Positions 3,694-49,991 of a stretch of 64,000 nucleotides of DNA are shown piece by piece. Numbering within the stretch: the first letter of the stretch is position 1; each line of letters begins with the position of its first letter. This DNA is from Acidobacteriota bacterium (lineage in GTDB: Bacteria > Acidobacteriota > Thermoanaerobaculia > Multivoradales > JBCCEF01). The DNA lies in the NCBI GenBank assembly GCA_039028635.1, contig JBCCHV010000007.1, forward strand, positions 1 through 64,000, read 5' to 3'. Under the pieces are notes generated by a model that saw nothing but the letters and a program-made list of their open reading frames with translations, was not told the origin of the DNA and did not search any database. Both the position numbers and the translations under genes were made by a program.

Positions 3694-4820
3694 CGTGGCT
3701 GTACATTCCGCCGTCACCGCCCTCTCCGTCTGTACCGGAGTCGGGATGCTCGACCACGGCGTCGACATCGCTCTTGGCGGCGCGCTGCGCCCAATCATGT
3801 ATGTGGAGGGGGAAGCGTTCTGCGCCGCGCACCTGGCGACACAGATGGAAGAGGGCGTCCTGGCTCCGGCGCCTGTCTGGTCTGACCTCCGGTTGCTTTG
3901 CCATCCCCGACTCGGCGCCCGCCCCTTTGTCGAGCGGGAAGTCCGACGGCTCGGCGGCCTCGGCCTCCTCTTCGGCGGCATCCCCTGTCAGCCCTACAGC
4001 GGCGCCGGCCTCCGCCGTGGAAAAGACGATGCTCGAGATCTATGGCCGGCCACTCGTCGAGCGATTGGGGCGTTCCAACCCGGGCTCGTGTTTCTCGAAA
4101 ACGTCGCCGGATTCGCAGGAGACCCTTCCGGGCTTTGGCGAGTTGCCGGATCCCTGGAAGATCTGGGCTACCGCGTTGCGGCGGGACTATGGAGCTCGGA
4201 GGAGTGCGGCGCGAACCACGGCCGCATCCGGTGCTTCGTCCTGGCCGACCGCGACACTGACCGAGCTCGGGAACTCACCCGCCAGCTACGCGGCCATGAA
4301 GGACAGCATGACGACCGGCGCGCGGAAAGCGGTGACGGAGTTGTCTCAGGCCGCGAGACTGTGGCCGCTGGAGACGTGGCCAACCGTGGTCGCCTTGGAC
4401 GGCGCCGGCTTCCGAGGGGATGCGGGTCCGAACAGGCACGCCGGCGAGACTCTGACCGACGCGGTCCAGAGCTGGGCGACGCCGGTCGCGAAGGACGCAA
4501 ACGGTCCGACCTCGAATCACCGCGACCTCTGCCGCGAGGCCTCGATCTTCCCCGGTACGCCCTCAGTCGAAACGCCTTCCGAGCTTGGGCAGCTATCGCA
4601 GGTGCTCGCCCAGATCTCCTACCCGCAGCTCCCATCGGATGGCAAGAGCAGCGGCGGGAGGAAGCTCAACCCGGCCTTCGCGGCGTGGCTGATGGGCTGG
4701 CCCCCCGAGTGGACCGACTCCGTGCCACCGGAAACGGAGTGGACCCACTGGTGGCAGCGTACGCGTTCGTCTCTCTTTGGGCTGCTCTCCATGGCCGGGA
4801 GAGTTGAGGTGGCGGCGTGA
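3690..4820 (+). CDS. ORF fully overlapping the C5-methyltransferase in another frame
   Basis: This 376-codon frame spans the whole methyltransferase gene. GTG 3690 overlaps the preceding stop, and its TGA (4818-4820) overlaps GTG 4817 of the next gene, so both ends have the four-base coupling typical of this operon, whereas the methyltransferase frame itself does not. The product starts MTWLYIPPS. It contains WLRRLSG, a Ser/Pro-rich segment, CFSKTSPDS, repeated WPT/WATP motifs and, near the end, LNPAFAAWLMGWPPEWTDS. From memory, this matches a widespread phage hypothetical family with LNP.(F/W)VEWLMG(W/F)P.GWT. Whether it is translated or is a shadow constrained by the methyltransferase cannot be settled from one sequence. 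Confidence 0.5.
   Translation: MTWLYIPPSPPSPSVPESGCSTTASTSLLAARCAQSCMWRGKRSAPRTWRHRWKRASWLRRLSGLTSGCFAIPDSAPAPLSSGKSDGSAASASSSAASPVSPTAAPASAVEKTMLEIYGRPLVERLGRSNPGSCFSKTSPDSQETLPGFGELPDPWKIWATALRRDYGARRSAARTTAASGASSWPTATLTELGNSPASYAAMKDSMTTGARKAVTELSQAARLWPLETWPTVVALDGAGFRGDAGPNRHAGETLTDAVQSWATPVAKDANGPTSNHRDLCREASIFPGTPSVETPSELGQLSQVLAQISYPQLPSDGKSSGGRKLNPAFAAWLMGWPPEWTDSVPPETEWTHWWQRTRSSLFGLLSMAGRVEVAA
3695..4807 (+). CDS. DNA (cytosine-5)-methyltransferase
   Basis: A 370-residue C5-cytosine methyltransferase. Motif I is SVCTGVGMLDHG (residues 11-22). The catalytic PCQ loop is GGIPCQPYSG with Cys about 98, ENV is at 135-137, and the GRIRC motif VIII is near 176. After an Arg/Gly-rich target-recognition region, the C-terminal motif X (RATGNGVDPLVAAYAF) closes the fold. 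It would methylate phage and host DNA, probably to evade restriction. The start is GTG 3695, five bases after the start of the overlapping frame. The region from motif VIII to X is unusually rich in Arg, Asp and Gly, which may reflect the second reading frame. A second methyltransferase follows at 4817. Confidence 0.85.
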   Translation: MAVHSAVTALSVCTGVGMLDHGVDIALGGALRPIMYVEGEAFCAAHLATQMEEGVLAPAPVWSDLRLLCHPRLGARPFVEREVRRLGGLGLLFGGIPCQPYSGAGLRRGKDDARDLWPATRRAIGAFQPGLVFLENVAGFAGDPSGLWRVAGSLEDLGYRVAAGLWSSEECGANHGRIRCFVLADRDTDRARELTRQLRGHEGQHDDRRAESGDGVVSGRETVAAGDVANRGRLGRRRLPRGCGSEQARRRDSDRRGPELGDAGREGRKRSDLESPRPLPRGLDLPRYALSRNAFRAWAAIAGARPDLLPAAPIGWQEQRREEAQPGLRGVADGLAPRVDRLRATGNGVDPLVAAYAFVSLWAALHGRES

Positions 4821-6241
4821 CGTGGTCGGTCCTCTGCACCGACGTGCTCGAGGGCCTTGCTGCCCTGCCCTCGGACTCCGTCCAGTGCGTCGTGACCTCG
4901 CCTCCCTACTGGGGGCTCCGGGACTACAGCATCCCGCCGACGCGCTGGGCGGATGGCACCGTCTGTTGCCTTGGCCTCGAGCCAACCCCTCACGCCTTCG
5001 TCGAGCACCTGGTTGAGGTGTTCGATGGGGTGCGCCGCGTGCTTCGGGCCGACGGGGTGTGCTGGGTAAATCTGGGGGACACCTACGCCGGCGGGCGCCG
5101 CGGACCCGAGGGCGATCACTCCAACCTTGCGGGGACTCGGAACAACCAAGCCGAGTCCCGGAAGGTCGAGATCTCAAAGCGGGTCGACGGGGTGCCGGAC
5201 ACGAACCTCCTCGGCATCCCCTGGCGCTTTGCGCTCGCGGCGCAGTCGGCGGGCTGGTTCCTGCGCCAGAACGTCATCTGGCACAAGTCGAATCCCTTCC
5301 CGGAGACGATCACCAGCCCACGGTGGGAGCGCTGTAGGCGCCAAGTGGGCGGCGGCTGGCAAGGCGATCACCCTTCGAAGCGACCGGAAGGGGCGAGCCG
5401 CTCGGGGTGCTTCGGTTCTTCCGGCGGAACGGTGGACTCGCCTGGTGCTGCGACTTGGGAACCTTGTCCGGGGTGCTCCTCGTGCGAACCCAATGATGGG
5501 TTCGTTCTTCGCCGCGGCTCCTGGCGCCCAACGACGGCGCACGAGCACCTGTTCATGCTGACGAATTCCTCGGACTACTTCGGCTGTGGAGAGTCCGTCA
5601 GGGAGCCTCTCTCTCCAAAGACCCGAACGGTCAAGACTACGCCGCGGAAGGGCGAGGGCGTGGAGAGTCGAGGGGAGGCCCTCAACGCCTGGATGGAGTC
5701 GCAGGGCGGCCGCTACCATCCGAACGGCCGCAACCTTCGCTCGGTCTGGCAGATCTCCACGCAGCCATTCTCAGGCGCCCACTTCGCCACCTTTCCCGAG
5801 CGCCTCGTCGAGCCCTGCATCCTCTCGTCGACTCCTGAGGCCGGCTGCTGCTCGAGCTGCGGCACTCCCTGGCTCCCGATCATCGAGCGCCGTCCTGGCG
5901 CCGGCAAGCGCAAGCCGGCCCACGTTCCCGGAACCCAAGGTTCGAGGACCTCGTCGACCGGATGGCGCTCCACTTTTGGTGGTGTCCAGGGCCACCGTCC
6001 CGCCTGCGACTGCGATGCGCCGGCGCGCCCCTCTCTGGTCCTGGACCCCTTCGCCGGCAGCGGCACGACGGGGCTCGTCGCCCTTCGCCTCGGTCGCTCG
6101 TTCCTCGGCCTCGAGCGCTCCCTCGCTTACTGCTCAATGGCTCGCGACCGGATCGGCGAGGCGGACCCGAATGTCCGCCTGTCGAAGCCGGCCGAGCTCG
6201 CTCCGATCTCCGGGCCGCTCTTCGAGGAGGGCGCCGCCTGA
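4817..6241 (+). CDS. Site-specific DNA methyltransferase (N4-cytosine or N6-adenine)
   Basis: A 474-residue amino-methyltransferase with the catalytic motif IV TSPPYW (residues 27-32) near the N-terminus and the AdoMet-binding FAGSGTTG (about 412-419) near the C-terminus. This permuted order is the one used by the beta class. Cys pairs (CPGCSSC, CCSSCGTPW, CDCD) in the middle suggest a zinc-binding insertion, seen in related phage enzymes. It starts at GTG 4817, overlapping the stop of the alternative frame. Together with the C5 enzyme it probably modifies phage DNA against restriction. The base specificity cannot be read from sequence. Confidence 0.85.
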   Translation: MTWSVLCTDVLEGLAALPSDSVQCVVTSPPYWGLRDYSIPPTRWADGTVCCLGLEPTPHAFVEHLVEVFDGVRRVLRADGVCWVNLGDTYAGGRRGPEGDHSNLAGTRNNQAESRKVEISKRVDGVPDTNLLGIPWRFALAAQSAGWFLRQNVIWHKSNPFPETITSPRWERCRRQVGGGWQGDHPSKRPEGASRSGCFGSSGGTVDSPGAATWEPCPGCSSCEPNDGFVLRRGSWRPTTAHEHLFMLTNSSDYFGCGESVREPLSPKTRTVKTTPRKGEGVESRGEALNAWMESQGGRYHPNGRNLRSVWQISTQPFSGAHFATFPERLVEPCILSSTPEAGCCSSCGTPWLPIIERRPGAGKRKPAHVPGTQGSRTSSTGWRSTFGGVQGHRPACDCDAPARPSLVLDPFAGSGTTGLVALRLGRSFLGLERSLAYCSMARDRIGEADPNVRLSKPAELAPISGPLFEEGAA

Positions 6242-42441: not shown

Positions 42442-42888
42442 TTACTCGACGCAGCATGAGCCGCAGTCGTTGCTGGCGCAGCCGCCGCAATGGAGTTGTT
42501 GGCCGCAGAAGATGCAGCAAGAGCGAGGGCGAAAGTCGGCGTCGAGCGACAGCTCGGCCACCGAGTAGGAGATCAGCTCGACTGTGCCGTCGAGCAACGG
42601 GAGCGAGGTGTGCCCCCAGGGTGGTAGCGGTGTCTTGGTGAGCGGGCGGAGCTCGCCGAGGCCGTCGACCTCGAAGACCTCGAGCGTCACGCCGGTGACG
42701 TCGACCTTGGGGACGATCCAGAGGCCGAGGTCGGCCTCGGCGATGATGAGAGGGGCACCCCACTGGCCGGAGAGGGTGGCCGTGGTGCTGTCCAGGTGCA
42801 CCCGCAGTTCGATGTCGTGAGTCTGGGCCGAGGCGGTGGCGGGTAGGAGCAGCAGGGTGATGACGGTGATGGCGAGGCGTAGACGCAC
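42442..42888 (-). CDS. Exported protein with Cys-rich tail
   Basis: A 148-residue protein with signal peptide MRLRLAITVITLLLLPATASA. The central part is beta-rich. The last 25 residues contain a dense Cys cluster (RSCCIFCGQQLHC and CGGCASNDCGSCC), which could be disulfide-bonded or metal-binding. It is divergent from the DprA-like gene. Confidence 0.6.
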   Translation of the reverse strand: MRLRLAITVITLLLLPATASAQTHDIELRVHLDSTTATLSGQWGAPLIIAEADLGLWIVPKVDVTGVTLEVFEVDGLGELRPLTKTPLPPWGHTSLPLLDGTVELISYSVAELSLDADFRPRSCCIFCGQQLHCGGCASNDCGSCCVE

Positions 42889-43015
42889 GGATTCCCCTCA
42901 GGCGGTGATTCGGATTGTCCTCTTGACTGAGGGAGTGCTGAAATTCTGCGGGAGCGGGACAGGTGGAACAGATCATGGTGAATTGAATTACGCCCCAGTT
43001 ACGCCTCGTGTCAGT

Positions 43016-43021
43016 TATAAT
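43016..43021 (+). promoter_or_regulatory. Consensus -10 box of the dprA-prt operon
   Basis: A perfect TATAAT ends 9 bases before ATG 43031, so the transcript would have at most a few leader bases. I see no good -35 box at normal spacing; an activator may be needed. Confidence 0.5.
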
Positions 43022-43030
43022 GACATTTGT

Positions 43031-43741
43031 ATGCCGTCCACCCCGCCTGCTGAGCACGACCGCAAGGGCTTCGCCCCTTGGAGTCCTGAGGATGTCCTTG
43101 GGCCGTTGAACTCGTTTGAGGCCAAGCATGCGCCCGAAGCGCTCTACCTCCGCGGAGACCTTGACCTTCTGAGATCCGGGCCCAAGGTGGCGATCGTGGG
43201 CTCTCGGAAGGCGTCGCCGGATGGCCTGAAGCGAGCCCGCAAGTTGGCTCGAGGACTGGTGGAGCATGGCGTCACGATCGTCAGCGGCTTGGCTGAGGGC
43301 ATCGACACCGCAGCCCATACGGCGGCGATCGAAGCGGGCGGCCGGACGATTGCGGTCATTGGAACGCCTCTGGACAGGTACTACCCGAGGAAGAACGCAG
43401 CGCTCCAGGACAAGATTGCAGCGGAGCACCTGCTGGTTTCCCAGTTTGCCCCGGGCGTCGAGACGGCTCGATTTCACTTCCCGATGCGCAATCGAACCAT
43501 GGCCCTGATTTCGGATGCTTCCGTCATCATCGAGGCTGGCGAGTCGAGCGGCACCAAGTCACAGGGGTGGGAGGCGCTTAGAATGGGGCGTCCACTTTTC
43601 TTGGTCAGGTCGGTGGTCGAGAATCCCTCTCTGAGCTGGCCCAAAAAGATGGTCGACTACGGCGCTGGCGTTCTTCGTCGAACCGAGGACCTCCTCGGCT
43701 CGCTGCCTTTCTCACAGGCCACTGGTGAGCTTGCTTTCTAG
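43031..43741 (+). CDS. DprA/Smf-like SLOG-domain protein
   Basis: A 236-residue protein with a DprA-type Rossmann fold: KVAIVGSRKAS (about 52-62), VTIVSGLAEGIDTAAHTAAI (81-100), AVIGTPLDRYYP (108-119) and a C-terminal NRTMALISDASVIIEAG. The SAM-like and winged-helix domains of competence DprA are absent. SLOG proteins of this group bind nucleotides or ssDNA and appear in conflict systems. The gene overlaps a phosphoribosyltransferase by 17 bases, so the two act together. Confidence 0.8.
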   Translation: MPSTPPAEHDRKGFAPWSPEDVLGPLNSFEAKHAPEALYLRGDLDLLRSGPKVAIVGSRKASPDGLKRARKLARGLVEHGVTIVSGLAEGIDTAAHTAAIEAGGRTIAVIGTPLDRYYPRKNAALQDKIAAEHLLVSQFAPGVETARFHFPMRNRTMALISDASVIIEAGESSGTKSQGWEALRMGRPLFLVRSVVENPSLSWPKKMVDYGAGVLRRTEDLLGSLPFSQATGELAF

Positions 43742-44417
43742 GCAGTCGTTCGCCTCATTCCTTCGATACTCGGTCCGAGGCGACTCGGAGCTGTCACGAA
43801 AGTCTCGCGATGCGCGACTTGACCTCAAGAACAACAAGGTCATCGCCAGTCTCGGGATCACGAATGCGCAGTACATTGCGCTCAGGCTTACCGAGGAGTT
43901 TCAGAAGGAGGACGAGGAGTTCGAGAACCCGGAGCTTCGTCGAAAGCTCAGGTTGCTGGAGACCGTCCTCAGCCCGACGGCGGCACTCGTTCCAGTACCA
44001 AGAAGCTCCCTGATCGGACCAGATTCTCTCTGGCCTCCCTTCGAGCTTGCGACCGCTCTGGTCGATCAAGGCTTGGGAGGCCAAGTCCTCCCGATCCTGA
44101 AGCGTACGAGAGCCGTCCCGAAGGCAGCCTTCGCCGCGCCGGGTGAGCGCTCAAGCGCTCAGGATCACTTTGAAACCATCGCAGTCGATCAGGATCAAGA
44201 AGTGCCTCGGACCTTGATTCTTGTCGATGACATCATCACAACGGGAGCGAGCATACTGGGCACCGCAAGCTTGCTCCGGCGAAGTTGGCCGACGGCAGAG
44301 ATCAGGGCATTTCTGGCCTATTTGCCGTTGTCGTTCGGCGAGGTCGAATCCATCGTCGACCCACAGATCGGCAGCATCCAACTCAGGCCGGATGGAAGCA
44401 CCAGCAGAACTCCGTAG
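43725..44417 (+). CDS. Phosphoribosyltransferase-fold protein
   Basis: A 230-residue protein starting at GTG 43725 inside the DprA-like gene. The PRPP-binding loop is ILVDDIITTGAS (about 165-176), and VPVPRSSLI near 90 matches the early PRTase strand seen in ComF-like proteins. The N-terminal 75 residues are a helical extra domain. Pairing with a SLOG protein suggests nucleotide synthesis or sensing rather than salvage. Confidence 0.8.
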   Translation: MSLLSRQSFASFLRYSVRGDSELSRKSRDARLDLKNNKVIASLGITNAQYIALRLTEEFQKEDEEFENPELRRKLRLLETVLSPTAALVPVPRSSLIGPDSLWPPFELATALVDQGLGGQVLPILKRTRAVPKAAFAAPGERSSAQDHFETIAVDQDQEVPRTLILVDDIITTGASILGTASLLRRSWPTAEIRAFLAYLPLSFGEVESIVDPQIGSIQLRPDGSTSRTP

Positions 44418-44909: not shown

Positions 44910-45146
44910 CTAGCCGTTGGGATCGATGAACGGCCCGGAGTCGAAGCCATTGAGATCGATGAACGGGCCAGCCTCGGCGCCGGTGGGGTCGATGTGAGGG
45001 CCGACCTCCAGCCCATGGGGGTCGATGAAGGGACCAACCTCGAGCGCGATCCCGAGAGGATCGATGTGCGGCCCGACGGAGAGGGCCAGGGCGGGGGAAG
45101 CTGCGAAGCAGATCAAGATGGCGGCGAAGAGAGCAGTGCGTCGCAT
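44910..45146 (-). CDS. Exported peptide with GP(H/F)IDP.G repeats
   Basis: A 78-residue protein. Signal peptide MRRTALFAAILICFAASPALA is followed by five repeats: GPHIDPLG, GPFIDPHG, GPHIDPTG, GPFIDLNG and the terminal GPFIDPNG. It is divergent from 45210, which encodes related repeats without a signal peptide. No known family name is recalled with confidence. The role could be adhesive, ion-binding or signalling. Confidence 0.6.
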   Translation of the reverse strand: MRRTALFAAILICFAASPALALSVGPHIDPLGIALEVGPFIDPHGLEVGPHIDPTGAEAGPFIDLNGFDSGPFIDPNG

Positions 45147-45209
45147 ACTGCAATCCTACAACAGCGGCAGCGCAATCTCGTAATCGCCGGCCGGCGGTAT
45201 ACTCCGCCC

Positions 45210-45455
45210 ATGAACTCCTCAATGCAGTTGACGGGCGGGCACATCGACCCCAACGGCTCGATCTCCCTGAATGGCGGCCAGGTGGACCCCAACGGCCGGC
45301 AGCTCCCCGGCGGCCCTGGGCAGGACCCGAACGGCGGCGTCTCCCTCAACGGCGGCCACATGGACCCCAATGGAGGCGTCTGCCTCAATGGGGGGCAGTA
45401 CGACCCGGACGGAGCTCCGGTGGCGGGCGGACCGGAGGTCGACCCGAACGGCTAG
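45210..45455 (+). CDS. GG.(I/V)DPNG repeat peptide
   Basis: An 81-residue protein made almost only of repeats: GGHIDPNG, GGQVDPNG, GPGQDPNG, GGHMDPNG, GGQYDPDG and the terminal GPEVDPNG, each followed by a short linker. A TATACT box (45198-45203) lies 6 bases before ATG 45210, so the mRNA looks leaderless. It lacks a signal peptide and has a single Cys. It is the partner of the exported repeat peptide on the other strand. Confidence 0.6.
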   Translation: MNSSMQLTGGHIDPNGSISLNGGQVDPNGRQLPGGPGQDPNGGVSLNGGHMDPNGGVCLNGGQYDPDGAPVAGGPEVDPNG

Positions 45456-45501
45456 GCAGCCCGCTCGACGGCCTTCTCGCGGTCGGCGGTGAGGATTGCC
45501 A

Positions 45502-45879
45502 CTAGGCCTCCTCCGGAAAGCAGAAAGTCAGCGCTTGGCCGTCAAAGCTGACGCAGATGGTGTGGTTCCGTCGCCGGCCGGTGCCGGTGATGATGACCTG
45601 GTACGCGTGGGTCTCGCCCGCCGGGAGGCCCCGGCGGAGCCCGAAAGTCGACATATAGGCCACATCCCACCAGACCCCCTTGAGGTCGTTGCACCAGCGG
45701 GGGTTGGCGACCGCGCGCTCAATCAGGGAGAGCAGTCCGGCGGCGATGTAGACCGGGGTCTCTCGGAAGAGCTGTTGAGTGATCTCCTCGAAGTCGCCTT
45801 GGTAGGCATCCATCAGGACACCGTCGTTGACGGCCTGGTCGCGGGTGTAGGCGTAGATGACCTTCTCGTTTGCGAGCAT
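45502..45879 (-). CDS. DUF6573-like conserved phage protein
   Basis: A 125-residue protein. IYAYTRDQAVNDGVLMDA and the central W..D..YM...GLR..LPAGE..A pattern match a conserved family of phage and plasmid proteins of unknown function. ATG 45879 overlaps the upstream stop (TGATG). It belongs to a three-gene reverse-strand operon with 45879 and 46094. Confidence 0.65.
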   Translation of the reverse strand: MLANEKVIYAYTRDQAVNDGVLMDAYQGDFEEITQQLFRETPVYIAAGLLSLIERAVANPRWCNDLKGVWWDVAYMSTFGLRRGLPAGETHAYQVIITGTGRRRNHTICVSFDGQALTFCFPEEA

Positions 45880-46094
45880 CAGACGCCCTCCTGAGCGGGA
45901 CACTGTCGGTTGGAGTCTCCACCGCAGGTGATCAAGGCGACCCAGCCGTCTCCGTCATGGTCGCCGTCGAGGTCGGCGCACTGCCCGCATAGAGTGGCAT
46001 CGCAGGAGTGGCAGAAGTAGACGGAGGGCTCATTGCAGTGGCTGCATGGGTATCCGAGCTCTTCGGTGGTTTCCTGCTGTAGCTTCGTGGTCAT
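45879..46094 (-). CDS. Small zinc-finger protein
   Basis: A 71-residue protein. CSHCNEPSVYFCHSCDATLCGQCADLDGDH has the spacing of a B-box-like or LIM-like double zinc site. ATG 46094 (or GTG 46097) overlaps the upstream stop. It lies in the middle of the operon controlled from 46.4 kb. Confidence 0.6.
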   Translation of the reverse strand: MTTKLQQETTEELGYPCSHCNEPSVYFCHSCDATLCGQCADLDGDHDGDGWVALITCGGDSNRQCPAQEGV

Positions 46095-46345
46095 CACTGC
46101 TCCTCCATGTACTCGGCAACGACGTCTTCGGCGAGGTCAACGGGGAGCCCCTCGATGCGGGCCGCCAGCTCGGCAGCGTCGCCGTTGTCGTAGTCGGGAT
46201 GATCGAGGGAGCCGACCAGAATGCCGTCGACAAACAGATCCCAGCTCTCGACGCCGTCCGCGCACTGCCGGCAGCCGCGGCCGAGGCAGCGGTCGCACTC
46301 GATGGCTTGGACGGTGGCGGTGGTGATCTGAATGGCTGCGAGCAT
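46094..46345 (-). CDS. Small hypothetical protein with Cys cluster
   Basis: An 83-residue acidic protein; ATG 46345 has GGAGAAAAAGAG before it. CDRCLGRGCRQC looks like a half DnaJ-type zinc module. The rest is acidic and helical. First gene of the operon transcribed from the promoter at 46375-46403. Confidence 0.55.
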   Translation of the reverse strand: MLAAIQITTATVQAIECDRCLGRGCRQCADGVESWDLFVDGILVGSLDHPDYDNGDAAELAARIEGLPVDLAEDVVAEYMEEQ

Positions 46346-46374
46346 CTCTTTTTCTCCCTCGTCGGTATGACCAA

Positions 46375-46403
46375 ATGATATCCAATGGATATCCAACTGT
46401 TAA
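46375..46403 (-). promoter_or_regulatory. Leftward promoter overlapped by GATATCC/GGATATC operator
   Basis: On the reverse strand TTAACA (46403-46398) and TATCAT (46380-46375) are 17 bases apart. The inverted repeat GATATCC-AAT-GGATATC (46377-46393) covers the -10 and spacer. A further half-site lies at about 46425. The divergent RHH protein is the likely binder. Confidence 0.65.
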
Positions 46404-46441
46404 GCCTTGACGTGGATTTCCGATGGATATACATTCCGGCA

Positions 46442-46618
46442 ATGGCGAAAGATGAAAGAGAGACCAGGAGACACAGCTCATCCGTGCTCGTGAGGCTCAC
46501 CGAGGAGCAGCTCGAGCTGGTGGACCGGGCGGCCGAAGCCACCGGACTCAATCGGACGGGATGGGTGCGGATGACGCTGCTGCAGGCGGCGAAGCAGCAG
46601 CTTGGAGAGGGTGGCTAG
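46442..46618 (+). CDS. Ribbon-helix-helix regulator
   Basis: A 58-residue protein. HSSSVLVRLTEEQLELVDRAAEATGLNRTGWVRMTL is a typical RHH fold (beta strand, two helices, N-cap Asn-Arg). TATACA (46428-46433) lies 8 bases before ATG 46442, so a leaderless transcript is likely. It probably represses the divergent three-gene operon and itself. Confidence 0.75.
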   Translation: MAKDERETRRHSSSVLVRLTEEQLELVDRAAEATGLNRTGWVRMTLLQAAKQQLGEGG

Positions 46619-47136
46619 AGGCGGTCGACCAGCGCCTTAATGAGTGGCACCAGGGAGCTGCCGAGGAGTGCACCCCAAAAGCTCAGGCGAGCAAGGCGCT
46701 TGCGAAGGGCCGCCTCCTGCTCAAATTTCAGGTCCTTTTCTTGCCTGGCGAGATGCTGTGCGGGGCCGCGGTTCGGCGTGTATGAAACGAAGTGAGGGCA
46801 TTTCCGACGGTCTTCGGACAGCTCGTCGGCAATGGCAGCTTCGTCGGCCCTAGCGAAGACTCCGGCTGTCCAGGCGCTACGCCAGCAGTTCGCCACGATG
46901 ATCAAGTGCGGTTCGATTCCAGGGGAGGAGCCCCGCTTGAATGCCGTAGCGATCGCCGCCAGCCGCCACCTATCGACTGTCGAAGCTTCGCTGTCTCCCT
47001 TGGCGAGGTAACCGCAGTCCAGGCAGGTCGGATTTCTGGCGCCTCGGATGCGCCGCTTCGCCTGCCTCCACCAGCGCCAAAGGCGTCTCCGTTGTGATTT
47101 CTTCCAGCGTCCCGGGCGAGGAACGAGGCGGCTCAT
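46615..47136 (-). CDS. C-terminally membrane-anchored hypothetical protein
   Basis: A 173-residue protein; ATG 47136 is chosen because an upstream gene ends at 47168. It has a very basic N-terminus, CLDCGYLAKGD, further Cys (ANCW, RKCPHF), a charged helix and a C-terminal transmembrane segment (LSFWGALLGSSLVPLIKAL). The Cys residues may form a zinc site. Tail-anchored layout on the cytoplasmic side. Confidence 0.5.
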   Translation of the reverse strand: MSRLVPRPGRWKKSQRRRLWRWWRQAKRRIRGARNPTCLDCGYLAKGDSEASTVDRWRLAAIATAFKRGSSPGIEPHLIIVANCWRSAWTAGVFARADEAAIADELSEDRRKCPHFVSYTPNRGPAQHLARQEKDLKFEQEAALRKRLARLSFWGALLGSSLVPLIKALVDRL

Positions 47137-47167
47137 AAGTGCTCCGTGGGTGGGTCGAGGGGCCTGC

Positions 47168-47569
47168 CTAAAGGAACGAGACTTCGGCTGTCTTTGCACC
47201 CAGATCCGCTTGACACAGAAATTCTCGGCGCACCGTACCGCCTAGAGCGGTTTCAGCTTCTACCCACGACTGCACGAGGAACTCGCCTTCCGAAAGCTGG
47301 TGGACGTCATCCAGTGGGCCGCTGAGGGCCCCCTTGAATTTGGCGCTCCGCGGATTCTTGAGCTGGCTCTCCACGGCGCGGCGGCAAGCCATGAGCGCAT
47401 CAATCGCTCCTTCCGGCCGGGCGGGTGCCGGAGCGGCCTGTTCTTGGGGGGGAGCGGGGCGCCGAGTCGACCTCCAGGTGAAGAAGCTGAACCAGAAGAT
47501 GGCGGCGATGACGGCACAGCCGGCCAGAATCTTCCCGTCGCTCGGCAGTGGCTTCGGCTCGGAGGTCAA
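47168..47569 (-). CDS. Single-pass membrane protein with extracytoplasmic domain
   Basis: A 133-residue protein. TTG 47569 overlaps the stop of a 28-codon zinc-ribbon ORF (TTGA). The transmembrane helix is ILAGCAVIAAIFWFSFF. The C-terminal domain has ACRRAVESQLKNPRSAKFKG and SWVEAETALGGTVRREFLCQ, a pattern I have seen in membrane-linked bacterial proteins of unknown function. A longer start at GTG 47620 is possible. Confidence 0.55.
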   Translation of the reverse strand: MTSEPKPLPSDGKILAGCAVIAAIFWFSFFTWRSTRRPAPPQEQAAPAPARPEGAIDALMACRRAVESQLKNPRSAKFKGALSGPLDDVHQLSEGEFLVQSWVEAETALGGTVRREFLCQADLGAKTAEVSFL

Positions 47570-47652
47570 CGGGAGATCACCCCTGACAACAGGTGGATCT
47601 CTTCCGCGCAGTAAGGGCACGTTTTCAACGGCGGCCCTCCCCTTGAACTCAT
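47566..47652 (-). CDS. 28-residue zinc-ribbon micro-ORF
   Basis: ATG 47652 opens MSSRGGPPLKTCPYCAEEI, with the common zinc-ribbon beginning CPYCAEEI. It stops at 47566-47568, inside a TTGA overlap with the next gene. In many proteins CPYCAEEI heads a zinc ribbon joined to a membrane protein, so this may be a split version. Alternatively it is the stub of a frameshifted longer gene. Confidence 0.4.
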   Translation of the reverse strand: MSSRGGPPLKTCPYCAEEIHLLSGVISR

Positions 47653-47956
47653 TTCGATGTTGCGCTATCGCAGCGTCTCGATATTACCGAGCCGCAGCGC
47701 TCAAGCCAAGCCTTCAGGGCGAATGATCTAATGGCGATGCGTCGATCTTCAGGGTTGCGCTGAACGATCGACGAGTTTCCGTGTCGGTAGCTTTGGGGAG
47801 GGCTACCGCCGATGGCCTCCCTTTGCGGCGCCCGACATGGGAGCAATTACATTCGAATTCGCTACGTTGCGAATCCGATGCTGTCATGCTCTGGGGGACT
47901 GTGGCCCTACGGGCCAATGCCGGCCCCGTAGGGACCTCGGCAAAAGGAGAAGTGCT
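47653..47956 (+). other. Intergenic region upstream of DPDG peptide
   Basis: No gene is clear. A 73-codon extension of the 47957 ORF would start at 47837, inside the structured RNA, and has no ribosome-binding site. The region is filled mainly by structured RNA copy B and a hairpin (CTACGGG with CCCGTAG, 47907-47931) just before AAAGGAGAAG. Confidence 0.5.
47740..47890 (+). ncRNA. Structured RNA element, copy B (hairpin plus pseudoknot)
   Basis: A 13-pair hairpin with one bulge: CGTCGATC/GATCGACG (47740-47747 with 47766-47773) and TTCAG/CTGAA around loop GGTTGCG. Then CGGTAGC/GCTACCG (47785-47791 with 47802-47808), whose loop GGGGAGG (47795-47801) pairs with CCTCCC (47816-47821). TGTCGG (47782-47787) can pair with CCGACA (47832-47837). 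Copy A keeps these pairs with different bases, good evidence of conserved structure. It leads into the 47957 peptide gene. Confidence 0.65.
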
Positions 47957-48058
47957 ATGTGGGAACTGATTCTCGAGATTCTCGGCTTGGGAGATGGATC
48001 GACCGCAGAGAGCAATGGAGAGCAGGAAGGCAATCCCGGAGCCGATCCTGACGGCTAG
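47957..48058 (+). CDS. 33-residue peptide ending GADPDG
   Basis: AAAGGAGAAGTGCT precedes ATG 47957. The peptide MWELILEILGLGDGSTAESN... has an amphipathic hydrophobic start and the terminus NPGADPDG, like the DPNG ends of the repeat peptides at 44910 and 45210. It is convergent with and overlaps by 4 bases the TPR gene. A small peptide beside an XRE-TPR pair recalls peptide-sensing regulators. Confidence 0.5.
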   Translation: MWELILEILGLGDGSTAESNGEQEGNPGADPDG

Positions 48059-49146
48059 CTCGGCCTAGCTGATGCTCGGTGCCTCGCCTTCTCCAGGAGT
48101 TCTAGGAGTTGAACTTCGGCCTGGCGCCGAGCAGCCCCGCTGCTGACCAACAAAACTGCTGCGAGGGCCTCGCGGTCTGACCCAGCAGCTTCGAGAGCTC
48201 CAGCAGCCAGTGTGGCGGCATACTGGACCTCAGCGAGATTGCCCATTCTCAAGAGAACCTCAGCTCGGTCAAGTTCTATCAGTCCCGCCAAGTGGGGGTG
48301 CTCAACGCGTTCGGCTTGCTCCCGAGCTAGCCGAAGGCGAAGCTCTCCCTCCTCAAGGCTGCCCATACCAACCGCGATACGAGCCTTGAGCCAGTCGCGG
48401 TTAATTGAGAGCTTCTCGCTGGCGTGATCCCGGTATAGGTACTTGATCTTGTGAAAGAGCATCATGGCCGACTCGAAGCGGCCCGATTCCACAAGACTGA
48501 AGGCGAGGTTATGGATGGCATTCAGCAGCATTCGAGGCTCAGACTCGTCCATCTCCTGAATAGCCCCTGCCAAGATCTCAGACGCACCAGACTGGTCGCC
48601 CGAATCTGCTAGGACCTGCCCGAGTTTGATCTGAATGGGGTTCAGGGTTTCCGGCGAGACGAGTCCTGTCGCCGCCTGGATGGCGCTCCTGAGAATCACC
48701 TCAGCTCGATCCAGATCGCCCAGGTCCATCCAAAGCGAAGCCTCGAGCGATGAGATGGCGGCGGCGTCATTCTCGTCTGTGACGTCATCGATGAGGTCAC
48801 GGACCATCTCAAACATCCACGCCGCTTTCCGCAGGTTGCCAAGGGCTCGATAGGCGTTTCCAACGACCGCCCAAGCTAGCGGCAGCAGCTCCGGCCCAAA
48901 GGGGCTCGGACTCTTTTCGGCAGCGGCAACTGCCACCCGCCCCCAACTCACAGCCTCAGTATCGCCTTCAATTGCAAGCCTTCGGCAGAATCCTATGGCT
49001 AGCTGGATGAAGGCACGACTGCGACAGGCCTCAAGCTCTCGGGCCCTCTGGACTCTCTCGCGGGGAGGAAGGCCGGCCAACTCAGCCGCTGCGACGTTGG
49101 CTGCGAGCTCATAAGAGTTCTGGAGCTCGATGGTCTTGTCGATCAA
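48055..49146 (-). CDS. TPR-repeat regulator-like protein
   Basis: A 363-residue all-helical protein with TPR units (AWAVVGNAYRALGNLRKAAW, LEASLWMDLGDLDRAEVIL, HNLAFSLVESGRFESAMMLF, RIAVGMGSLEEGELRLRLA). It has no DNA-binding domain of its own, but the XRE-type gene lies 3 bases upstream, so the pair may form a split version of HTH-TPR (RRNPP-like) peptide-sensing regulators. Base composition is lower in GC than the phage core. Confidence 0.65.
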   Translation of the reverse strand: MIDKTIELQNSYELAANVAAAELAGLPPRERVQRARELEACRSRAFIQLAIGFCRRLAIEGDTEAVSWGRVAVAAAEKSPSPFGPELLPLAWAVVGNAYRALGNLRKAAWMFEMVRDLIDDVTDENDAAAISSLEASLWMDLGDLDRAEVILRSAIQAATGLVSPETLNPIQIKLGQVLADSGDQSGASEILAGAIQEMDESEPRMLLNAIHNLAFSLVESGRFESAMMLFHKIKYLYRDHASEKLSINRDWLKARIAVGMGSLEEGELRLRLAREQAERVEHPHLAGLIELDRAEVLLRMGNLAEVQYAATLAAGALEAAGSDREALAAVLLVSSGAARRQAEVQLLELLEKARHRASARPS

Positions 49147-49149
49147 CTC

Positions 49150-49614
49150 TCAATCCTCTTCCGCCTTCGCGTAGCCTGGCTGCTGGCGCTTGACCCTAGA
49201 CTCGGATCCTTCCGCTCCTGATTCCGTGCTCTCTGGACTGAGAATCGACATTCCGGCAATGTGGCGGACAACAGCCGCCGCCAGCTCGTCCATCGGATTC
49301 TGAAGATCAAACGCCCACGGAGCCTTCCCGGACGAATCAGCCGGCGTGCTGCGAAGCTCCTTCAGCACTTCAGTGGTTTCCGGTTGGCGCCCAGTGTGGC
49401 CCATCGCGACCGCAAGGTCAAGCAAGTCCGCGTCTAGCGCTTCTAACAGCGCAACCAAGCGCGGAAGGGGAGGGACCGATGGCCCTTTTTCGTACTGCTT
49501 TACGGACGATTGGGATACTCCTAGCCTTTCGGCTAACTCCGCTTGGCTCAGGCGTCTGTCGTCGCGAAGCTTTCGCAGGTAGTCGCGGAACGCCTTGAGG
49601 GTGATCTCGTCCAT
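49150..49614 (-). CDS. XRE-family HTH regulator
   Basis: A 154-residue protein. RRLSQAELAERLGVSQSSVKQYEKG (about 19-43) is a Cro/CI-type helix-turn-helix. The C-terminal half is helical and could contact the TPR protein encoded just downstream. It is divergent from the Cro-like gene at 49731. TATAGT (reverse of 49629-49634) is about 14 bases before its ATG, so the leader is very short. Confidence 0.8.
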   Translation of the reverse strand: MDEITLKAFRDYLRKLRDDRRLSQAELAERLGVSQSSVKQYEKGPSVPPLPRLVALLEALDADLLDLAVAMGHTGRQPETTEVLKELRSTPADSSGKAPWAFDLQNPMDELAAAVVRHIAGMSILSPESTESGAEGSESRVKRQQPGYAKAEED

Positions 49615-49628
49615 TTGGGATTAATCCT

Positions 49629-49723
49629 ACTATACAAGATAGCAGAACCACCAGATTTCAGCCAGTTGGCTATCTAAGTTGCCTGGTTAGTACCTTGACA
49701 CGCCTTTTTTGAGTATCTATACT
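49629..49723. promoter_or_regulatory. Divergent promoter region between XRE and Cro-like genes
   Basis: Rightward: TTGACA (49695-49700), 17 bases, TATACT (49718-49723), ending 7 bases before ATG 49731, so leaderless. Leftward: TATAGT at 49634-49629. GATAGC (49638-49643) and GCTATC (49669-49674) form an inverted repeat between them. This is the second repressor/Cro-style switch in the window. Confidence 0.7.
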
Positions 49724-49730
49724 GACCATC

Positions 49731-49991
49731 ATGGTCAGCAAAAACACTGGATCGAGTATCAAGACGCGCTCTCGGGCCGCCATTCAGTTGGCAGAGTTCA
49801 TCCTTATGAAGGGATGGAAGTTTGAGCGGGCCGGCCAAGAGTTTGGCTGCTCCAAGGCGATGATCGCTCACCTGGTGAGCGGCCGCCACACGCCAGGTCT
49901 GGAGTTGGCGACCCGCATAGCCGACCAGGGAGGTCCCGCCGAGAGGCTGTGGTTCAGCCTTCCTGCGCCCGACCCTAGGGAGGCCGCATGA
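49731..49991 (+). CDS. Cro-like HTH protein, first gene of early operon
   Basis: An 86-residue protein. WKFERAGQEFGCSKAMIAHLVSGRHTPGLELATRI is a Cro/CI-type HTH. It is transcribed from a consensus promoter with no leader, divergent to the XRE repressor-like gene. The stop overlaps ATG 49988, and the early operon continues to at least 52245. Confidence 0.7.
   Translation: MVSKNTGSSIKTRSRAAIQLAEFILMKGWKFERAGQEFGCSKAMIAHLVSGRHTPGLELATRIADQGGPAERLWFSLPAPDPREAA

Follow-up and report, generated by a model that had tools for sequence, protein, structure and literature searches.

A prophage-borne peptide-TPR gene pair in Acidobacteriota and its proposed place in a large family of peptides with cognate receptors

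We analyzed a 64,000-nucleotide stretch of an Acidobacteriota bacterium genome (assembly GCA_039028635.1, contig JBCCHV010000007.1, positions 1 to 64,000; hereafter the window), focusing on a prophage region in which small-peptide open reading frames (ORFs) occur together with genes for a tetratricopeptide repeat (TPR) protein and an XRE-type regulator. An initial reading of the sequence (the original prediction) had placed these genes in a prophage, which is borne out by PHROGs matches to terminase, portal, head protease, major head protein, tape measure and serine integrase. The serine integrase gene is located at a tRNA-Ala, and a search of the region for an exact attachment-site repeat of at least 16 bp shared with the tRNA-Ala end found none. 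Central to this study is pepC (47957-48058, plus strand), a 33-aa ORF (MWELILEILGLG...NPGADPDG) proposed to encode the precursor of a cognate ligand, which converges on a gene for a 363-aa protein with Pfam TPR matches (48055-49146, minus strand), the proposed cytoplasmic peptide receptor, such that the two 3' ends overlap by 4 bp. The TPR gene is directly preceded by, and probably co-transcribed with, the gene for a CI-like XRE/HTH_3 regulator (49150-49614, minus strand; Pfam HTH_3 E=1.6e-14, with matches to phage transcriptional regulator PHROGs). Both the overlap of the 33-residue ORF with the TPR gene and the upstream XRE gene had been predicted correctly.

Two further ORFs complete the set of three short products with IDPNG, VDPNG and ADPDG ends, all of which we confirmed. 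The first, pepA (44910-45146, minus strand; 78 aa), is a putative exported multi-copy peptide precursor with a signal-peptide-like N-terminus followed by five GP[HF]ID-x-x-G units (GPHIDPLG, GPFIDPHG, GPHIDPTG, GPFIDLNG and GPFIDPNG); the five repeats and exported-type start stood as originally described, except that the fourth unit reads IDL rather than IDP. The second, pepB (45210-45455, plus strand; 81 aa), is, as had been noted, divergent from pepA and consists of GG..DPNG repeats without a signal peptide. Compared with its relative on contig C14, pepB exhibits a weak codon-position signal with no clear third-position bias, so that its coding status is uncertain. That relative is a second pepB-like ORF of 87 aa (L074:4781-5044, corresponding to G000:C14:39780-40043, minus strand; NGGQIDLDGRQLPGGPSVDPDG...), and no TPR gene was found near it within the 10 kb fetched. 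For pepC, a strong ribosome-binding site precedes the ATG (AAAAGGAG), and the differences among the five XRE-type mini-peptides (pepC and its paralogues) are concentrated in third codon positions, an argument for their translation.

A search of the 6.28-Mb genome for the DNA pattern encoding DP[ND]G followed by TRR returned 15 occurrences, compared with 1 for the reversed control pattern, and nearly all small-ORF matches of the pattern adjoin genes of one TPR family. We searched for this family genome-wide with a profile of eight TPR proteins and then called genes in the resulting regions using a simple home-made caller, with the domains of several neighbours read by eye. This approach identified 23 close TPR paralogues in the window's own genome (window TPR included), every one of which (23/23) has an adjacent peptide ORF, with two TPR genes on contig C82 having one peptide ORF between them in common; L075, which matches next and more distantly, lacks such an ORF. 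Across all loci read, 76 of 116 distinct TPR genes have a peptide ORF under a strict rule, namely location within 0.9 kb of the TPR gene and presence of the D, P and final G of the core; a comparable rule applied to control DNA totalling 400 kb (20 stretches of 20 kb from elsewhere in the own genome) yielded a single match, apparently a shadow ORF. The peptide ORF is located upstream on the TPR gene's strand in 58 of the 76 and convergent in 12. The remaining 40 genes include clear variants (e.g., GPGLDPIG, GTGIDPIG, GVTVSPDG and a threefold CRADPYGGC), loci truncated where the contig or locus stops, and TPR genes neighboured by extracytoplasmic function (ECF) sigma factor genes without a peptide. 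Collectively, these counts strongly support DP[ND]G-type peptides and the TPR family as genomic partners, a link that the original prediction had offered as inference.

The TPR family was present in 25 of the 40 genomes chosen by kinship, a set that includes the own genome, and in 16 of 22 genera, the highest copy number in one genome being 45, compared with only 9 of 199 genomes in a phylum-wide sample. The contigs of its relatives belong to Acidobacteriota, mostly Thermoanaerobaculia. We found no description of these peptide-TPR loci in the open-access literature searched, and the paired-gene family, a small peptide with a terminal G-P-x-I-D-P-N-G-like motif and a helical-repeat protein resembling known bacterial peptide receptors in shape, is apparently both large and undescribed. 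Two simpler markers were set aside: DP[ND]G followed by a stop codon is not diagnostic alone, as most genomes in the phylum-wide count lie at or near control level, and the internal core pattern per genome was too noisy against TPR copy number to be used, the motif occurring in ordinary proteins as well. Repeat matches in G033:C58 were rejected as a shadow ORF.

The precursors have a common layout: first a Sec-type signal, which the mini-peptides lack, then a Trp-rich helix followed by a linker, and finally a core of the form xG[PS]x[MILV]DP[ND]G. By a crude hydropathy rule, used in place of SignalP, most precursors have Sec-like N-termini, whereas the mini-peptides (26-34 aa, five of them of the XRE type) begin directly with a Trp-rich amphipathic helix. 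A glycine at position -4 of the last core is found in 65 of 76 precursors, although it lay outside the selection rule. The segment between signal and core includes Trp in 54 of 58 precursors, at a frequency of 4.7% compared with 1.06% in the TPR proteins. Multiple cores (2-9 copies) are present in 27 of the 76, and their variable positions agree at 65% within one precursor vs. 16% between precursors. The pepA units follow the core grammar seen in precursors that adjoin TPR genes.

Some precursors depart from this layout. The one at L185:4163-4531, between two TPR genes, carries three units with Cys on either side (C[WRL]ADPYGGC), which may be closed by disulfides, and those at L060 and L109 have a C-terminal CGPG[AI]DP[ND]GCP. 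At L201, a distant TPR relative is followed by four ORFs in tandem (4436-5205; 60-62 aa each), which have signal-like starts and IPRP or IPRPKP ends and may perhaps represent another peptide family.

This anatomy bears on whether the peptide is a ligand at all. It might instead be an output, i.e., a secreted antimicrobial, membrane-active or surface peptide that is regulated by, or needs, the TPR protein and its regulator, with the TPR protein regulating something else or acting as an immunity factor. Signal peptides and amphipathic Trp-rich helices do resemble those of secreted membrane-active peptides, the same-strand upstream position of the 58 peptide genes noted above is operon-like, and TPR and core sequences co-vary only weakly (see below). 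Against this, multiple and internally uniform cores are typical of cases where the short core is the active unit, the predicted TPR structure described below would suit peptide binding, and neither a dedicated transporter nor a protease or modification gene was seen beside the loci. We regard a secreted output as unlikely.

To characterize the proposed receptor, we modelled the window TPR protein with AlphaFold2 (44 family members; pLDDT 93.8, 19 helices) and searched for fold matches by Foldseek and VIA. Rap and NprR structures, several with their peptides bound, ranked among the best matches, with VIA Z-scores of 26.1 for Rap3T with its pheromone, 25.9 for Rap-CSF, 25.6 for RapF with an inhibitory peptide and 23.6 for NprR-NprX. 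In TPR folds the groove is lined by the first helix of each TPR pair, and the near-invariant residues N96, R99, N212 and W251 are all located on such helices. The predicted fold, together with conserved polar residues on its groove-side helices, thus fits peptide binding without proving it. In a PDB profile search, Rap105 was matched at E=6.6e-9, with many TPR proteins of designed or eukaryotic origin ranking higher, and there was no RRNPPA model among the listed Pfam and NCBIfam matches of the TPR protein.

The NCBIfam matches included weak similarities to HaaT and to TPR proteins of FxSxx-COOH systems which, taken with the leader-core design of the precursors, raise the alternative of maturation resembling that of ribosomally synthesized and post-translationally modified peptides, in which the core would be modified and the TPR protein would serve as a pathway scaffold. 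These similarities reflect generic TPR repeats, however, and the precursors have Sec-type signals. Moreover, by-eye reading of the own-genome loci and listed relatives revealed no radical SAM enzyme, cyclase or other peptide-modifying enzyme beside the modules, and likewise no dedicated transporter or protease. We consider this alternative very improbable. The modules are located among unrelated genes; elsewhere, the genome encodes one SBP_bac_5 and one OPT protein, both possible importers.

The regulators adjoining the TPR genes also follow a pattern. Directly upstream of the TPR gene is an XRE or other HTH gene in 9 of 116 loci and an ECF-sigma-like gene in 20. The XRE-TPR order of the window is repeated in four other loci, and these five copies form one clade (tree support 0.98), found only in the own genome among the 40. 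Three of the five XRE-TPR-mini-peptide modules (L053, L054 and L059) also adjoin ORFs that by eye resemble RHS/YD-repeat N-termini (..YDYSGIDSVNLFNGNLVLA..). At L207:3721-5843 (G007), a 29-aa peptide ending in ELDPNG is followed on one strand by an ECF-sigma-like gene and then a TPR gene, while at L162 and L165 an ECF sigma gene lies upstream of the TPR gene with no peptide.

These latter loci, along with an N-terminal Hx3-4Cx2C motif present in most family members, recall ECF sigma factors with soluble anti-sigma factors, and would suit a TPR protein acting as an anti-sigma factor or anti-repressor that senses a non-peptide cue such as stress or a metabolite, the peptide binding another host protein. 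This too appears improbable, if slightly less so than core modification: peptide genes adjoin the TPR genes far too often for the two to have independent functions, and no anti-sigma Pfam family was matched by the N-terminal segments of the TPR proteins. The arrangement also differs from ECF sigma/anti-sigma pairs in its added peptide gene and in the XRE subgroup, which lacks the N-terminal domain; the motif is absent from the window TPR protein. The tree leaves an ancestral state of ECF-TPR without peptide unsupported either way.

In the window, the XRE-TPR-peptide genes face a divergent gene (49731-49991, plus strand) for a small HTH protein of 86 aa, Cro-like by position, with a weak HTH_31 match (E=3e-4) and no PHROG match. 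The XRE/HTH intergenic region contains a promoter-like site, TTGACA-17-TATACT (49695-49723, plus strand), called near-consensus on its 11/12 consensus matches only, as well as short inverted repeats (49637-49643/49669-49675 and 49712-49748) recognized from the sequence. By position, this divergent arrangement would correspond to the layout of a lysogeny switch.

Taken together, we think it probable, with considerable room for doubt, that the prophage in the window carries one of many cognate pairs of peptide and receptor that together form a large family, in which the peptide controls the adjacent regulator through the TPR protein. What we observe in its favor are the genes themselves, their recurrence, the precursor anatomy, the predicted receptor fold and the partner genes. 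From these we infer export, cleavage, re-import, binding and an effect on XRE, as follows. A small precursor would be made and exported, via its Sec signal in most cases and by another route for the 26-34 aa mini-peptides, and proteolysis would free one or more short peptides with the xG[PS]x[MILV]DP[ND]G core. The freed peptide would then be re-imported and bind the concave groove of its own cytoplasmic TPR protein, which when peptide-bound would alter the activity of the neighbouring regulator, here XRE and elsewhere an ECF sigma factor or other target. In the prophage, the output would likely be regulation of XRE, the repressor, at the XRE/divergent HTH promoter, and thereby the lysogeny decision.

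Several observations weigh against this proposal. Eukaryotic peptide-binding TPR proteins score as well as Rap against the window model (APPBP2 26.6, LGN 23.6), for the longer TPR type with the N-terminal Hx3-4Cx2C segment LGN is the first match with Rap lower, and TPR folds bind many ligands. Similarity between TPR proteins correlates only weakly with similarity between their cores (Mantel test, r 0.146, p 0.009 overall), and the correlation vanishes below 40% TPR identity such that only close pairs carry the signal; because of this weakness, the case for cognate specificity is built on the adjacency of the genes and the uniformity of cores within precursors. No recognised regulator lies immediately upstream of 87 of the 116 TPR genes, pepC and the other mini-peptides have no Sec signal, and a peptide returning into a diderm cell would face two membranes on its way. 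Finally, neither pepA nor pepB adjoins a TPR gene, both lying ~3 kb from the one in the window, so that the predicted proximity of the short peptides to the XRE-TPR pair holds for pepC but not for these two. The suggested link between peptides and TPR protein fared similarly, upheld by the own-genome, all-locus and control counts but not by the location of pepA and pepB. Likewise, repeat peptides without any TPR regulator, an outcome that would have counted against the link, are not the pattern of the family overall, although pepA, pepB and the second pepB-like ORF do stand without an adjacent TPR gene.

The nearest known counterpart is RRNPPA signalling (Rap, Rgg, NprR, PlcR, PrgX, AimR), which pairs a TPR receptor with an adjacent exported propeptide (PMC9765709; RRNPP_detector rules, PMC10075063), accepted by RRNPP_detector at 10-100 aa (PMC10075063), and which the surveys consulted treat in Bacillota/Firmicutes (PMC9765709, PMC10075063, PMC12700828). 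Both feature a 350-470 aa TPR protein without export signal beside a small, mostly signal-bearing ORF with a presumed C-terminal pheromone, several pairs per genome and carriage on mobile elements. A 5-9-repeat right-handed TPR superhelix is also predicted here, a fold likewise found in non-RRNPPA TPR proteins, and the adjacent small ORF here typically has a Sec signal and C-terminal core, though the window's pepC lacks the signal. In contrast, the Acidobacteriota family belongs to an outer-membrane phylum, the sequence similarity detected is only at the generic TPR level, the HTH protein or sigma factor is encoded by a separate gene with no N-terminal HTH fused to the TPR protein (window and four paralogous loci), and its peptides exhibit a near-universal DP[ND]G core and a Trp-rich helix, some precursors exceeding 100 aa. 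The peptide-TPR system probably works like RRNPPA; we call it RRNPPA-like rather than a member because the phylum, core and DNA-binding partner differ and sequence kinship is not demonstrated.

Closer parallels exist within phages. Tandem-pheromone Phr precursors of Bacillus phages (Rap3T-Phr3T, Rap105-Phr105; PMC11343458) likewise hold several pheromone copies per exported precursor, are phage-borne and belong with the closest solved Rap structures, but the present family has up to 9 copies, another core, a separate HTH gene and another phylum. In arbitrium (AimR-AimP-AimX), too, the regulatory region of a temperate phage encodes a peptide and a TPR protein, with possible lysogeny control, but AimR itself binds DNA, whereas the window TPR protein has no HTH domain in Pfam and XRE is separate. 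The original comparison with a Rap-Phr or arbitrium-type parts list thus stands as regards the Rap/NprR-like fold and the frequent XRE or ECF partners, and is weakened by the generic similarity, the separate HTH gene and the different phylum.

These findings suggest that dozens of parallel channels for peptide signalling have evolved in a phylum other than the Gram-positive Bacillota. The literature consulted reports intracellular communication by peptides and TPR proteins for Bacillota only; if the proposal is true, such signalling arose, or spread, outside Gram-positives. The tens of pairs per genome would constitute a ready cognate set for studying peptide specificity, and the phage-borne pair a testable case of peptide-controlled lysogeny outside Bacillus. 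A fuller picture, which we put forward tentatively and with a little less confidence than an even chance would warrant, is one of a hitherto undescribed kind of intracellular peptide signalling in an outer-membrane phylum with at most ~45 TPR receptors per genome, distinct DP[ND]G pheromones and separate XRE/ECF regulators, captured by a prophage for its lysogeny decision, with pepA possibly serving as an extra phage signal to host receptors. Searches of phage records with the window TPR protein and pepA, and of IMG/VR with the XRE-type TPR alignment, returned no relatives. Elsewhere in the prophage (42860-44417), two adjacent ORFs resemble, by eye, DprA and a ComFC-type phosphoribosyltransferase (LVDDIITTGASILG).

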